A DNA stretch of 64,000 nt from Dysgonomonadaceae bacterium zrk40. GTDB lineage: Bacteria; Bacteroidota; Bacteroidia; Bacteroidales; Dysgonomonadaceae. The notes under the pieces are model-generated. The model did no database searches. It had not been told where the DNA came from and was given only the letters and a program-made list of their open reading frames with translations. The stretch spans positions 62,001 to 126,000 of the forward strand of contig CP070276.1 in assembly GCA_016916535.1 (NCBI GenBank), read 5' to 3'. The position numbers and the translations under genes were made by a program. Numbering within the stretch: position 1 is the stretch's first letter; the number at the start of each line of letters is the position of its first letter. Shown one piece after another: positions 5,595 through 64,000 of the stretch.

Positions 5595-6620
5595 ATGAAA
5601 GCACTCGTTAAATTGCGTCCCGAGAAGGGCATCTGGATGGAAGAAGTTCCCGTTCCCTCAATAGGGGTGAATGATGTACTGATCAAGATTAAAAAGACAT
5701 CAATCTGTGGTACCGATCTGCACATATACAAATGGGACGATTGGTCGCAGAAAACCATCAAGACACCCATGACGATTGGCCACGAGTATGTGGGCGAGAT
5801 AGTGGACATGGGTAGCGGTGTTACGAACCTTAAGGTGGGAGACCGCGTGACGGGCGAGGGTCACATCGCCTGCGGTCACTGTCGCAACTGCCGTCGCGGC
5901 AAGCTGCACGTCTGCGAGAACACCATCGGTGTGGGGGTAAATCGTGACGGTGCCTTCGCGGAGTATCTCTCCTTGCCGGCTGCCAACGTGGTGAAGCTCG
6001 ACCCGCGCATCCCCGATGAGATTGCTTCCATCATGGATCCCTTTGGCAATGCCACCCATACGGCGCTCTCCTTTCCGCTGATCGCCGAAGATGTACTGAT
6101 CACCGGCGCGGGACTGATCGGCAGCATGGCCACTGCCATCTGCCGTTTCGCAGGGGCACGCTACATTGTGGTGAGCGACCTGAGTGATTACCGCCTAGAA
6201 ATCGCCCGCAAGATGGGAGCCACCCTCACGGTGAATCCCTCAAAGGGAGAGACCATTGCACAGGCAGTGACGCAACTGGGCATGCGTGGTTTCGACGTGG
6301 GGCTGGAGATGTCGGGGTCACCTGCCGGCTTCCGCGAGATGATTGACAACATGTACAACGGATCCAAAATCTCACTGCTGGGTATCCTTCCCAACAACAC
6401 ACAAGTTGACTGGAACGAGATCATCTTCAAGGCGCTCACCCTGAAAGGCATTTACGGACGGGAGATGTGGGAGACATGGTACCAGATGGAACAGATGATC
6501 GTTTCCGGTATCGACCTCACCCCCATCATCACCCATCGTTTCCATGTTGAGGAGTTCCAGAAAGGGTTTGATGTGATGGAGAGCGGTCAATGTGGCAAGG
6601 TGCTGCTCAGCTGGGAGTAA
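5595..6620 (+). CDS. tdh: L-threonine 3-dehydrogenase
   Basis: Zinc- and NAD-dependent medium-chain dehydrogenase that oxidises L-threonine to 2-amino-3-ketobutyrate, the substrate of the upstream kbl product. Motifs in order: catalytic-zinc Cys in [11 protein letters not shown] near residue 38, GHEYVGEI near 63, four structural-zinc cysteines in [15 protein letters not shown] near 97-111, and the Rossmann stretch [10 protein letters not shown] near 171. At 341 aa it has the normal length. It ends 4 bp from the stop of the convergent DUF4230 gene. Confidence 0.97.
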
Positions 6621-57453: not shown

Positions 57454-60759
<3,306 letters not shown>

Positions 60760-60855
60760 AATTCAAATTTTGTTTATTGTGTAGCTGACCTGTTCACCGC
60801 CAATAGATTGGGAAGAGTCAGTTCTCCTATTATCTTATAAGTGTGATGTAATATC

Positions 60856-62454
60856 TTAATAGAGTTCTTCAAGTATCATGCCGGCGGCAGCGTTGGGTGC
60901 ACGTATACGCAGGCGATAGGAGACCGAGGGTGCTATCGCAGTAGCATCAATGGTACGATTGATCTTCTGTGGTTTAATGTCGTTGCCGAAAAAGATGACA
61001 GGAGCAATGACAGCATTGCTACGCTCACGCACCTGCAGATCCGATCCGGGTTCAACAACCCTCCAGCCGGGTTTAAGTTCCAGCATCAGGTCTCCTGAGA
61101 TCCCGGGGTAATAACCGTTTCGCAGAAAAAGGGTCTGTTCATTGTGACCTGCCTGTGTCATTTGGTTCGCAGTGATTACCTGCTGAATGCCGGCCGACTG
61201 TACCAGAAAGGCTGCCGCTTTCTCCTGAAAGTCAGCAAAATCAATCTTGTGGTCTTCCACCAACTTGCGATCGAAGAAGATATGACGGCCGTGATACTTT
61301 TTGATCCACTGCTCATGACCGTAGAGTGCCATCAGGTACATGTTGAGGAGTGCCTGACTCCTGTCGGGATGAAAATCGCCACCTGCAGGCAGCATCCCCT
61401 CGGGAATGATTTCCTGTTCATTGAAATAACCGGTGGAGACCAGGTAGACAAGGGTATGTTTCAAGCCAACAGTTGCTTCAATGGCATCCAACAATCGACC
61501 GATCTCCTGGTCGAGACGGTAGTAGGTATCCTGTATCTCTACTGAGTAGTTCTTGTCGAGCGCTTTTTCATAATTACCGGCGTAGAAAGTGACCGCCAGA
61601 AAGTCGGGATTCATCCGTTTCCCCAGCTGGCTACTCTCCAGCACCTTGATCGCCATGTTATTCACCTCACTGTTCACGTAGGGTGACTGCTTGAAAAGCT
61701 CGTAGCTATCCTTTTTGTCGTTACCAAAGTAATGCTGAAAACGGTATCTGTTCTTTGTATAAGGAAAAGCATCGTAGCTCTCTATCTCCCGCGAGGGACG
61801 CCATGTAATGCTGCCAATGGTGTAGGTGAGTGACTCGTCACTACGGTTTTGTTGGTCCACTGCCGGCTGTTTGTTTTTGTAGAAGGTGCTGGTGGCCCAC
61901 TTGCCTTTGCTTTCCTCAATCCAGTAGGCACCGCTGGCTGCATGTCCACCCGAAGCGAACGCTTGTGAGGCGTAGGGAGCAAAAGCGTAAACATCTGATT
62001 GTCCCCCCGAGGCTATTTTGAGCTCATCAGCGAGGGTGGAGACCCTTATGGGTCGGGGTGAGAGCTTCTCGGTAGTGTAGTTACCCAGGTAACGGTCGTC
62101 GGAAAAGGAGGAGATTTCCTGTCCCGTTTCTAACTGATACCTCTTTTCACCTGTAATGCCATGGTAGGAGGGATAGGCTCCGGTAAAAAGTGTAGTGATG
62201 GCCGAAGCTCTGTCGGGATTGGGGTAGTTGTATCGTATATTGCTATATACAAGACCATTGCTTATCAGCCTATTGAACCCTTTGTTGTCAAAGCTGTGGC
62301 GGAACATCTCCAGATAGTCACCCCGCAATTGGTCCACAGTGATGGCAACCACCAGCTTGGGCACCTCTCCCGAACGGGTTTGTGCAGCGAGTGGTGCAAT
62401 AGCAAAAAATGCAACCAACGAAGAAAGTATGCGAATCATATTGTTACCGCTCAT
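60856..62454 (-). CDS. PafA-like alkaline phosphatase superfamily protein lacking catalytic residues (pseudoenzyme)
   Basis: 532 aa with a signal peptide (start possibly at the Met at 62439). It has the alkaline-phosphatase fold scaffold: TVDQLRGDYL (metal Asp41 kept), TLFTGAYPSYHGITG near 88-102, GGHAASGAYW near 169, VEIQDTYYRLDQEIG near 305, and IDATAIAPS near 502. Compared with the PafA active site as I recall it, the nucleophile Thr aligns with Arg82, the D-x-x-x-H ligand pair with TFYAGNY (289-295), the D-H of the ADHG motif with STGY (340-343), and the last His ligand with NAVIAP (480-485). Loss of phosphatase activity is therefore inferred. It is placed 10 bp after the Lnb-like gene. 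Confidence 0.82.
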   Translation of the reverse strand: MSGNNMIRILSSLVAFFAIAPLAAQTRSGEVPKLVVAITVDQLRGDYLEMFRHSFDNKGFNRLISNGLVYSNIRYNYPNPDRASAITTLFTGAYPSYHGITGEKRYQLETGQEISSFSDDRYLGNYTTEKLSPRPIRVSTLADELKIASGGQSDVYAFAPYASQAFASGGHAASGAYWIEESKGKWATSTFYKNKQPAVDQQNRSDESLTYTIGSITWRPSREIESYDAFPYTKNRYRFQHYFGNDKKDSYELFKQSPYVNSEVNNMAIKVLESSQLGKRMNPDFLAVTFYAGNYEKALDKNYSVEIQDTYYRLDQEIGRLLDAIEATVGLKHTLVYLVSTGYFNEQEIIPEGMLPAGGDFHPDRSQALLNMYLMALYGHEQWIKKYHGRHIFFDRKLVEDHKIDFADFQEKAAAFLVQSAGIQQVITANQMTQAGHNEQTLFLRNGYYPGISGDLMLELKPGWRVVEPGSDLQVRERSNAVIAPVIFFGNDIKPQKINRTIDATAIAPSVSYRLRIRAPNAAAGMILEELY

Positions 62455-62464
62455 CAGAATAATA

Positions 62465-63751
62465 TTATTGCCCCCATGCTGCCTTCATCTCCCGGCTGGA
62501 TGTGAAACGTCTGCTTTTCAGTTTCAGCCTCCTGACCACAAAGAGGTTTGTCGCCGAACGAATCCAGAGACTCATGGAAAAGGGTATGGTTGCCACCGGT
62601 AGTTGTTGTGGTATAAACCACCAACAGAGCAAGAACAGCGTTAAGAGTACAAAGTTAATAAAATGATAGACATAAACACCCCTTCGGGCTGATTTCACCC
62701 AAAAGAAAAGAGCGGCCAGCAGCGCAACAGGATGCAGCCACACAAGGTTCCAGTTTGGGTTCGTAGCGGGATGTGAAGAGAAGTACATCAGGAAAAAGAT
62801 GATCACTCCTCCCAACCCGGCAACACCGAAGAGAAGGGTATCATAGATCCTGGAAAAGCGACTCCCGCGCATCTTGAAAACTTGCATCAGTGAGATTATC
62901 AGCGTAAAGAGCAATAATAAGAGTGCCGTCACAAGCGGCGTAAAAAGGCTCTGCTTCGCGACACCGTTGCGCACATGGTCCTGTGTGATGATCACCTCAG
63001 AATGAGCTACCAGTGGTATTGTGAGTGAATCGTTCTTTCTGATGGTTGCTTCTTCAAAGGAATCCATCAGATAGGAAGGAATGAACATCTTTTCCCGCAC
63101 GCCAATGGTACTGTCCGATTCCGTACCTATCAGAAGATCAACGCCAAAACTATACCATGGATAGTGTACCAGCGATTCATGTACCAGATCACGATAAGAC
63201 TGTGGTTTCCTGGTCGGGGGATAGTGAACCACTCCCTCCATATATTTCTCAACCATGTCGCGTGGACGGGTTGCACAGTTATCGTAAAAGTAATTGTAGC
63301 GATATCCTCTGTTCTCAGGGAGAGCATTCTCATAAAGGGCGTTGTAGAGCAGCTGTTTCTCCTGCTGTGAGAGGTTCAGTTGTTGTTCCACCACCTGTTG
63401 TCCCTTTGCGTTGTATTCATAGAGGAAATCAGCAAAAGAGGTTATCCCAAGGATATAATCGGTTCTACCCCTCACGAAATTATAGATGAATCCCGGTTGT
63501 GAGGAATCGAAAAAGCCATAGTTGAAAACTGCATCTATCCCGGTAGAGTCATCCTGTACCCTGATAGCAGTATGACCGAACAGGGCATAGAGGGCCCCGT
63601 TCCAGGGAGAGGCGGTAAGCAGGCTAACCGATGCACTGTCATTCAACTGCACCTGTGCATTCAGCGACTGGCTCATCAGTAGCAGGCAAACTGAAAAGAG
63701 TGGTATGAAGATTCTATTTCGGGTAAAAAGTGTTGTAACTGCTTGTTTCAT
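62465..63751 (-). CDS. DUF4105 membrane protein, candidate lipoprotein N-acyltransferase (Lnb-like)
   Basis: 428 aa from the ATG at 63751; the longer frame begins upstream of the -7 box. Order: signal peptide (about residues 1-33), a periplasmic DUF4105 domain (about 40-260) with His in ALFGHTAIRV and Cys in YDNCATRPRD, then about five membrane segments (about 275-400). DUF4105 proteins were, to my recollection, recently linked to lipoprotein N-acylation in Bacteroides (Lnb). The His-before-Cys order suggests a permuted papain-like site. The window encodes many lipoproteins that would need such an enzyme, but the assignment to this gene is inference. Confidence 0.8.
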   Translation of the reverse strand: MKQAVTTLFTRNRIFIPLFSVCLLLMSQSLNAQVQLNDSASVSLLTASPWNGALYALFGHTAIRVQDDSTGIDAVFNYGFFDSSQPGFIYNFVRGRTDYILGITSFADFLYEYNAKGQQVVEQQLNLSQQEKQLLYNALYENALPENRGYRYNYFYDNCATRPRDMVEKYMEGVVHYPPTRKPQSYRDLVHESLVHYPWYSFGVDLLIGTESDSTIGVREKMFIPSYLMDSFEEATIRKNDSLTIPLVAHSEVIITQDHVRNGVAKQSLFTPLVTALLLLLFTLIISLMQVFKMRGSRFSRIYDTLLFGVAGLGGVIIFFLMYFSSHPATNPNWNLVWLHPVALLAALFFWVKSARRGVYVYHFINFVLLTLFLLCWWFIPQQLPVATIPFSMSLWIRSATNLFVVRRLKLKSRRFTSSREMKAAWGQ

Positions 63752-63786
63752 CTTTCTCTGTTTGTTCTTTTCAACAATCACAGTTG

Positions 63787-63794
63787 CAAAAATA
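63787..63794 (-). promoter_or_regulatory. Bacteroidetes -7 box (TATTTTTG) for the Lnb-like gene
   Basis: Reverse-strand TATTTTTG followed by C, immediately after the L31 terminator and 35 bp before the 63751 start. Confidence 0.55.
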
Positions 63795-63797
63795 GGC

Positions 63798-63828
63798 AAA
63801 AAAAACGGCGGTCTCAACAGATCGCCGT
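63798..63828 (-). terminator. Rho-independent terminator for the L31 gene
   Basis: Reverse-strand ACGGCGATCT / AGACCGCCGT (one G-U pair) with loop GTTG, then a run of eight T, 26 bp after the L31 stop. Confidence 0.85.
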
Positions 63829-63854
63829 GCAAATTCCGTTCCCAGAATCTATTT

Positions 63855-64000
63855 TTACTTCTTCTTGTTACGGTTTCCGTAACGGTTCATGAACTTGTCG
63901 ACACGTCCTGCTGTATCAACCAGTTTCTGCTTACCGGTGTAGAACGGATGCGATGCGCTGGTGATTTCAAGTTTCACCAACGGATAGGTAACGCCATCTA
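63855..64000 (-). CDS. rpmE2: 50S ribosomal protein L31 type B, 5'-truncated at window edge
   Basis: The last 48 codons are visible: the frame reads [20 protein letters not shown], then [21 protein letters not shown] and NRNKKK, and stops at 63855. This is the C-terminal part of a type B (zinc-free) L31. The start lies beyond position 64000. It is followed by a strong terminator. Confidence 0.92.

Follow-up and report, generated by a model that had tools for sequence, protein, structure and literature searches.

A PafA-like pseudoenzyme between lnb and secA in Bacteroidales carries an arrest-like C-terminal motif and may serve as a secretion monitor

Results

A pseudophosphatase gene between lnb and secA

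The window, that is, the whole 64,000-nucleotide stretch of DNA analyzed (Dysgonomonadaceae bacterium zrk40, contig CP070276.1, positions 62,001 to 126,000), contains a gene for a homologue of the phosphatase PafA, situated between an Lnb-like gene and secA on the reverse strand and referred to herein as pseudo-PafA. The features are given below in the direction of reading.

62465..63832, reverse strand: Lnb-like lipoprotein N-acyltransferase gene, with a TTG start as listed, 10 nt upstream of pseudo-PafA
60856..62454, reverse strand: pseudo-PafA, an exported pseudophosphatase (ORF of 532 aa, PafA homology, active-site alignment)
62383..62454, reverse strand: N-terminal export signal, residues 1-24, as judged by hydropathy (hydrophobic at 6-24, ending ...APLAAQ)
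60892..60909, reverse strand: motif R-I-R-A-P-N, residues 516-521, whose Pro is 12 codons away from the stop
60760..60855, reverse strand: gap of 96 nt from the pseudo-PafA stop to the secA start, in which no conserved hairpin was found
57454..60759, reverse strand: secA, 1101 aa, directly downstream of pseudo-PafA and the proposed regulated gene

The pseudo-PafA reading frame is intact over its 532 codons and begins with ATG; a lipobox Cys is absent from residues 1-24 of the window copy. Translation of the Lnb-like gene likelier starts at a Met 27 codons into the frame than at the listed TTG. Its product scored above the cut-offs of both PF13387 and PF25221, and obtained 396 bits with the NCBIfam Lnb model, under the cut-off of 550; this cut-off may be too strict for the window's lineage, both Pfam Lnb domains being passed.

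A PafA-like match was found in 241 of 392 genomes of the order. Orthologues of the window gene, of the lnb/secA kind, are termed S-type, PafA proteins with an intact site canonical, and the other degenerate PafA homologues of Bacteroidales gld-type; L numbers denote loci, G numbers genomes, and f and g numbers their family and genus codes. The S-type set comprises 66 loci, drawn from 21 named records (Proteiniphilum, Dysgonamonadaceae, Porphyromonadaceae or unplaced Bacteroidales), the window and 44 genomes, and covers 16 family codes. All 66 loci have the gene flanked by lnb on its upstream side and by secA on its downstream side, in the same orientation (at L020, lnb is only partly visible), and the order Lnb-like gene, pseudophosphatase, secA, whose recurrence in Bacteroidales the first-pass annotation had put forward as a check, is thus found again throughout the 16 family codes. 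The distance from lnb to pseudo-PafA falls between -30 and +35 nt in 48 of the 60 measurable loci and is exactly -4 in nine, while the secA start lies 11-320 nt past the pseudo-PafA stop (median 92.5).

The gene is under purifying selection. In comparisons with three near relatives (L001, L002 and L003), dN/dS was 0.062, 0.054 and 0.064 for pseudo-PafA, below the values for the neighboring lnb (0.097, 0.104 and 0.104) and above those for secA (0.021, 0.041 and 0.041); six further pairs with higher or saturated dS were set aside. The range of 0.054-0.064 supports the earlier view that this is a maintained pseudoenzyme and not a decaying gene.

Loss of the PafA active site across orthologues

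Homology to PafA extends over residues 26-530 (PDB 5TJ3, E 1e-47; 5TOO, E 7e-48), and PF01663 matched with an E value of 9e-23. With the NCBIfam PafA model NF042991, the window protein scored 300.2 bits, below the equivalog cut-off of 650. Because an AlphaFold model of pseudo-PafA (21 rows) had a mean pLDDT of 35, the fold assignment rests on homology.

We take the active site of PafA to be formed by D38, T79, N100, K162, R164, D305, H309, D352, H353 and H486, numbers and roles being presumed; the letters of all ten were checked on the 5TJ3 chain. Aligned to that chain, the ten positions in the window read D, R, E, Y, S, N, A, T, G and Q, such that the first metal Asp (D38) is kept and nine of ten residues are replaced. 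An Arg at the nucleophile position, the stretches TFYAGNY and STGY, loss of the last His and survival of the first metal Asp alone had all been read from the sequence beforehand, and this alignment bore them out. Alignment with the orthologues likewise upheld the claim of an erased site: T79, K162, R164, D305, H309, D352 and H353 are retained in none of the 66, N100 is retained in 16 and D38 in 63, and ten different residues occupy the nucleophile position. H486 was matched in three of 66, in a stretch where the alignment is unreliable. As a control, canonical PafA with all ten residues was found at 60 loci (58 distinct genes), these being the top-scoring matches of a phylum search (30 loci) and a class search (30 loci), with two genes in both sets; the first 30 were picked by the PafA model, which favors intact sites, and therefore the control shows contrast, not frequency. 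Pseudo-PafA is confirmed as a PafA homologue that lacks the catalytic site across its orthologues.

Could the ligands have shifted to nearby residues? His reaches 60% or more of the 49 orthologues in only two columns, and in canonical PafA the same two columns are likewise at least 60% His, which makes a bimetal site with shifted ligands unlikely at the sequence level. A metal site rebuilt from new His residues is disfavored by the same lack of a new His column among the 49 orthologues. An alternative in which the body has remained some kind of enzyme by remaking its active site, or holds a phosphorylated ligand where the original pocket was, would fit the conservation around the old metal site, where T341 (84%) and G342 (94%) of the STGY stretch and D41 (94%) are kept in the 49 orthologues. 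We nonetheless regard this as improbable, given that the nucleophile together with D305, H309, D352 and H353 is gone in 66 of 66, that the nucleophile position has drifted to ten residues, and that neither the three doubtful matches to H486 nor any new His column supplies a substitute.

Other degenerate PafA homologues in Bacteroidales

Forty further Bacteroidales loci with weaker matches (L154-L193) were collected. Thirty-five of them are gld-type, keeping 0-5 of the ten active-site residues, and gldD lay within the fetched stretch at 11 of these 35; the other five consist of three intact copies (L154, L162 and L171), an S-type copy (L157) and a fused copy of family f37 (L182). These 35 loci (within L155-L193) and L089-L092 make up a second degenerate group, from other Bacteroidales families, which keeps different subsets (0-5 of ten) of the active-site residues. 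Some gld-type copies stand beside ychF and a convergent cluster of pcrB, PPTase, gldD, gldE, ssb and mutY, and the intact L162 and L171 are among their relatives. A role in type IX secretion (T9SS) or gliding, suggested by gldD and gldE as neighbors of the degenerate homologues, was set aside: those genes face the opposite way, and the window copy lies elsewhere.

A single origin of all degenerate Bacteroidales PafA also seems unlikely. The quick tree is poorly resolved and L154, L162 and L171 are intact, which makes repeated erosion likely; on this sequence comparison, catalysis was probably lost repeatedly in Bacteroidales PafA homologues with the gene kept. L154 (G222:C22) is a PafA with all ten active-site residues in a genome that also has an S-type copy; the quick tree places it with canonical PafA from other orders, and it was possibly transferred. 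Two loci, L223 (G922:C133) and L199 (G373:C1:2757719-2759302), are second, more distant PafA-like copies of 27-29% identity, in genomes that carry another copy as well.

A conserved C-terminal motif

The protein ends in a conserved tail, [RKY]-I-R-[A/S/P]-P, which is present at all 66 S-type loci as RIRAP (33), RIRSP (20), RIRPP (10), YIRPP (2) or KIRPP (1). The residue after the motif Pro is N in 59, S in four, T in two and G in one. Between motif and stop are 4-21 codons, 12 or 13 in 45 of the 66, and from the motif to the secA start are 60-362 nt (median 133).

A column test was made on 49 S-type rows, with 18 close Proteiniphilum-like rows left out. I517 and R518 are present in 49 of 49, and every one of these rows has A, S or P at position 519. 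R518 was found in none of 39 gld-type rows and in two of 45 canonical rows, and 40 of the 45 canonical PafA proteins carry F or Y at position 519. Pro520 and a mostly Asn521 are common to S-type and canonical PafA, leaving R516, R518 and the small residue at 519 as the sole new elements. As N371, L369 and W186 are, like R518, near-invariant and specific to the orthologues, part of the conservation could belong to the surface of a folded protein.

The motif is rare outside this gene. Among 1598 other distinct ORFs in the DNA examined, IR[ASP]P occurs within the last 25 residues of nine, eight being S-type pseudo-PafA genes that had passed the filter and the ninth a 122-aa ORF at L305, described below.

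The motif follows secA in cis

Of 111 pseudo-PafA genes followed immediately by secA on the same strand, 110 have I-R-[A/S/P]-P. The 110 consist of the 66 S-type loci, L216, L217, L157, 29 new loci of a fresh family sample, 11 of 20 further places, and L292. In the fresh sample, 193 of 199 genomes matched, and the best 30, taken as loci, had RIRAPN, lnb and secA in 30 of 30 (L232 repeats an earlier gene, leaving 29 new ones). The 20 further places were picked from the family list and are mostly lower-ranked; 11 of 11 with secA directly downstream read RIRAP, seven without such a secA all lack the strict motif, and two (L256 and L272) stop at a contig end. The single counterexample is L222, in a 65%-complete genome, with RICSPN directly upstream of secA.

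By contrast, where secA does not follow directly, strict I-R-[ASP]-P was found in none of the 11 copies. Their tails read RIRRPN (L255, L258 and L259), HIRRPN (L257), NISIPN and KLNTPN (L260 and L262, where an opposite-strand gene intervenes between pseudo-PafA and secA), KISVPN (L261, fused to lnb with secA on another contig) and RIRVPN (L068, with neither lnb nor secA adjoining); the f37 copies L182, L196 and L219 have lnb, no secA directly downstream and no motif. L088, also of f37, has neither gene beside it and misses the motif, and was not counted among the 11. The difference between 110/111 and 0/11 (Fisher p 9e-15) is uncorrected for kinship, and the unlinked genes are spread over few lineages (f26, g486, g492 and f37), representing about four independent unlinkings. 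L216 has the opposite arrangement, in which secA adjoins, lnb is elsewhere, and the tail reads RIRPPN. The C-terminal motif tracks secA, not lnb.

An element for secA encoded in the nucleic acid (a promoter, leader RNA or protein-binding site) that is merely read as amino acids could also track secA in cis. We hold this to be very improbable: 48 distinct 15-mers occur at the motif in 50 genomes and all six Arg codons are used at R518, which argues that the peptide is conserved and not the DNA. Nor was a consistent fold found. Rfam gave three matches in window positions 60000-64000, all far below gathering scores, and folding of the 3' end and the gap revealed no mRNA hairpin that would hide the secA start and be opened by a stalled ribosome (a shift above 0.1 in two of 38, with a mean z of -0.8; window -0.01).

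Body and tail part company

The two parts of the protein do not share the same fate. Over 15 positions, the body is kept in eight unlinked S-type copies (103 of 120) about as in 41 linked ones (547 of 615), whereas the strict tail is present in none of the eight and in all 41. Single tail residues are partly kept in the unlinked copies, at 24 of 32 positions against 164 of 164 in the linked ones (R516 in 4/8, I517 in 7/8, R518 in 5/8 and P520 in 8/8), and two unlinked lineages mostly retain R-I-R with the middle residue alone changed, to V or R.

The opposite separation may be seen in L305, where a short ORF of 122 aa (5817-6185, reverse strand) lies between lnb and secA, at 6 nt from the former and 84 nt from the latter. 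It consists of a signal peptide and ...GIKIRAPSLLPLA (GIKIRAPS), with the phosphatase domain absent. In a 52-row set, it aligned with the N-terminus of the full-length protein at the signal peptide (41% over 29 aa, E 0.002), and its matches to the full-length C-terminus are weak (E 2-9); taken together, these alignments suggest an internal deletion as its likely origin. This shrunken form was seen in one genome; a congeneric genome, G280, retains the gene at full size, with RIRAPN.

Pseudo-PafA is dispensable at the lnb-secA place in some lineages, as lnb abuts secA with no pseudo-PafA between them in L202, L203, L295 and L296. For L202 and L203, neither the three forward frames of the lnb-secA gap nor the C-terminus of Lnb showed an IRxP-like tail. 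L200 and L201 are from genomes of 1.0-1.2 Mb that have lnb and no pseudo-PafA beside it; larger genomes of the same family (f83) keep pseudo-PafA.

How, then, is the protein related to Lnb? It could be, tail included, a non-catalytic periplasmic partner of Lnb, such as a scaffold or a presenter of lipids or lipoproteins, with the tail as a binding surface and the secA neighborhood as operon inheritance. The close-packed or overlapping genes speak for this, as do Lnb-pseudo-PafA fusions in two different families (L182:5971-8745, reverse strand, 924 aa; L261, a 956-aa frame), Lnb-pseudo-PafA pairs without secA (L196 and L219), the other orthologue-specific conserved residues in the body and the strong purifying selection. 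In neither genome does secA adjoin the fused gene, and in both fusions the pseudo-PafA signal peptide has become an internal hydrophobic segment. However, the strict tail is absent where Lnb adjoins or is fused and no secA lies directly downstream, it is present in L216 with secA and no lnb adjoining, and Lnb is found in genomes without pseudo-PafA at the lnb locus. Gene order should be irrelevant to a surface that acts in trans, and the cis dependence of the motif therefore weakens this account, which we consider unlikely for the whole protein. The first-pass annotation had suggested an envelope role from the position between Lnb and SecA; its Lnb side remains plausible in view of the gene overlap and the two fusions, and the likely reason for the secA neighborhood has changed, since the motif, which that annotation had not noticed, tracks secA rather than lnb.

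Discussion

A proposed secretion monitor for SecA

With moderate confidence, and reasoning from sequence comparison, we favor the view that this exported pseudoenzyme carries a SecM-like secretion monitor for SecA, in which the tail would serve secA in cis and the body would have a separate job. The protein would thus consist of two separable parts. The tail, I-R-[A/S/P]-P-[N/S/T/G], would be a force-sensitive translation-arrest motif of the SecM/RAPP kind, with R518-A519-P520 as the putative arrest core and N521 in the A site. The pull of Sec on the nascent protein during export would release the ribosome; under slow export it would stall, mostly with 12-13 codons left to the stop and 60-362 nt short of secA, and secA expression would rise, such that pseudo-PafA would act as a sensor of export failure. 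The degenerate body may perform a non-catalytic periplasmic job, most likely with Lnb, a link suggested by the close-packed or overlapping genes and the two fusions.

Comparison with known arrest peptides

The likeness to SecM is drawn from motif and position, not from a sequence relationship. SecM, the secretion monitor of E. coli, is described in parts of PMC10987492 and PMC7897499 as ending in GIRAGP and regulating secA. Both are exported proteins with an N-terminal localization signal (here hydrophobic at 6-24, by hydropathy alone), encoded directly upstream of secA on the same strand (at a gap of 96 nt in the window), and both end in related motifs, GIRAGP in SecM and [RKY]IR[ASP]P here, with GIKIRAPS in the short form. 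In addition, the spacer from signal to motif exceeds 30 residues and would reach the translocon, at ~490 residues in the window and ~90 in the short form. They differ in that the carrier here is a pseudoenzyme of ~530 aa under strong selection compared with the 170 aa of SecM, that the motif here usually lies 12-13 codons before the stop, and that no stem-loop over the secA start was found here. The missing hairpin (two of 38 with a shift above 0.1) counts against the monitor proposal.

Closer parallels may be found in ApcA, ApdA, ApdP and the RQH family, which likewise have an R-[small]-P core near the C-terminus, are exported, and lie upstream of a sec or yidC gene. As reported in part of PMC12992588, ApcA, ApdA and ApdP share an R-A-P core, the residue that follows it occupying the A site, and the Arg is irreplaceable. 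At the middle Ala, ApdA and ApdP accept G and, to some degree, S, D and P, and ApdP also E, and V in B. subtilis, whereas ApcA tolerates no change there (parts of PMC12992588). The A site of ApcA takes P, C, N, T, S, G, D or A, and ApdA and ApdP require Pro in it (portions of PMC7897499). By analogy, the S-type variation (A/S/P, followed by N/S/T/G) lies within the range of these three peptides together; no single one of them allows all of it, which weighs against the proposed monitor, as do the counterexample L222 with RICSPN directly upstream of secA and the few unlinked lineages, whose copies still hold 24 of 32 tail positions. Also against it, RAPP-like motifs alone were insufficient in the published cases described in PMC12992588. 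The fourth residue is mostly Asn here and Pro or Gly in RAPP-type peptides.

Size sets the present protein apart, the ApcA, ApdA, ApdP and RQH families being under 300 aa by search criterion and the window protein being 532 aa with a PF01663 match; only the 122-aa form of L305 falls below 300 aa. In the literature consulted, Sec-monitoring arrest peptides are small proteins, and two published screens were restricted to ORFs of 80-200 aa or of <300 aa that lack an annotated function; a monitor on a 530-aa "phosphatase" would therefore have fallen outside them. Candidate monitors upstream of secA or secDF in Bacteroidota, uA_NSP-stop and uDF_NAP-stop, are given in part of PMC10987492; they share the phylum and the position upstream of secA or secDF with pseudo-PafA, and uA_NSP-stop differs in being short, reported from Sphingobacteriaceae and terminated by Pro-stop. 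The parts of PMC10987492 on Bacteroidota candidates do not mention pseudo-PafA. Our literature searches found no paper on the S-type pseudoenzyme or its tail, and a word search of two BAM papers gave no mention of phosphatase or related terms. As for PafA itself, the relationship to 5TJ3 is one of full-length sequence homology, the differences being the nine of ten replaced active-site residues in the window and the score below the NCBIfam cut-off.

Implications

A broader reading, to which we give somewhat less than even credence, is that in much of Bacteroidales the secretion monitor arose at the C-terminus of a full-size, catalytically dead phosphatase and the protein is bifunctional, the tail stalling the ribosome to govern secA in cis and the body serving Lnb-dependent lipoprotein maturation. 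On this reading, the cell would gauge its export capacity by how well a protein of envelope biogenesis, whose gene lies between those of the two machines, is itself exported. Some lineages would later have retained one part alone, either the body as a fusion with Lnb or the tail as a SecM-sized peptide.

PafA-like genes in Bacteroidales should have their active sites checked before being counted as phosphatases; according to part of PMC8812569, a published survey has already applied such a filter. If the proposal of a monitor is true, the separation of body and tail would amount to a natural experiment, and Bacteroidales would gain both a feedback device for secA and a selective reason for the tail of the pseudoenzyme.
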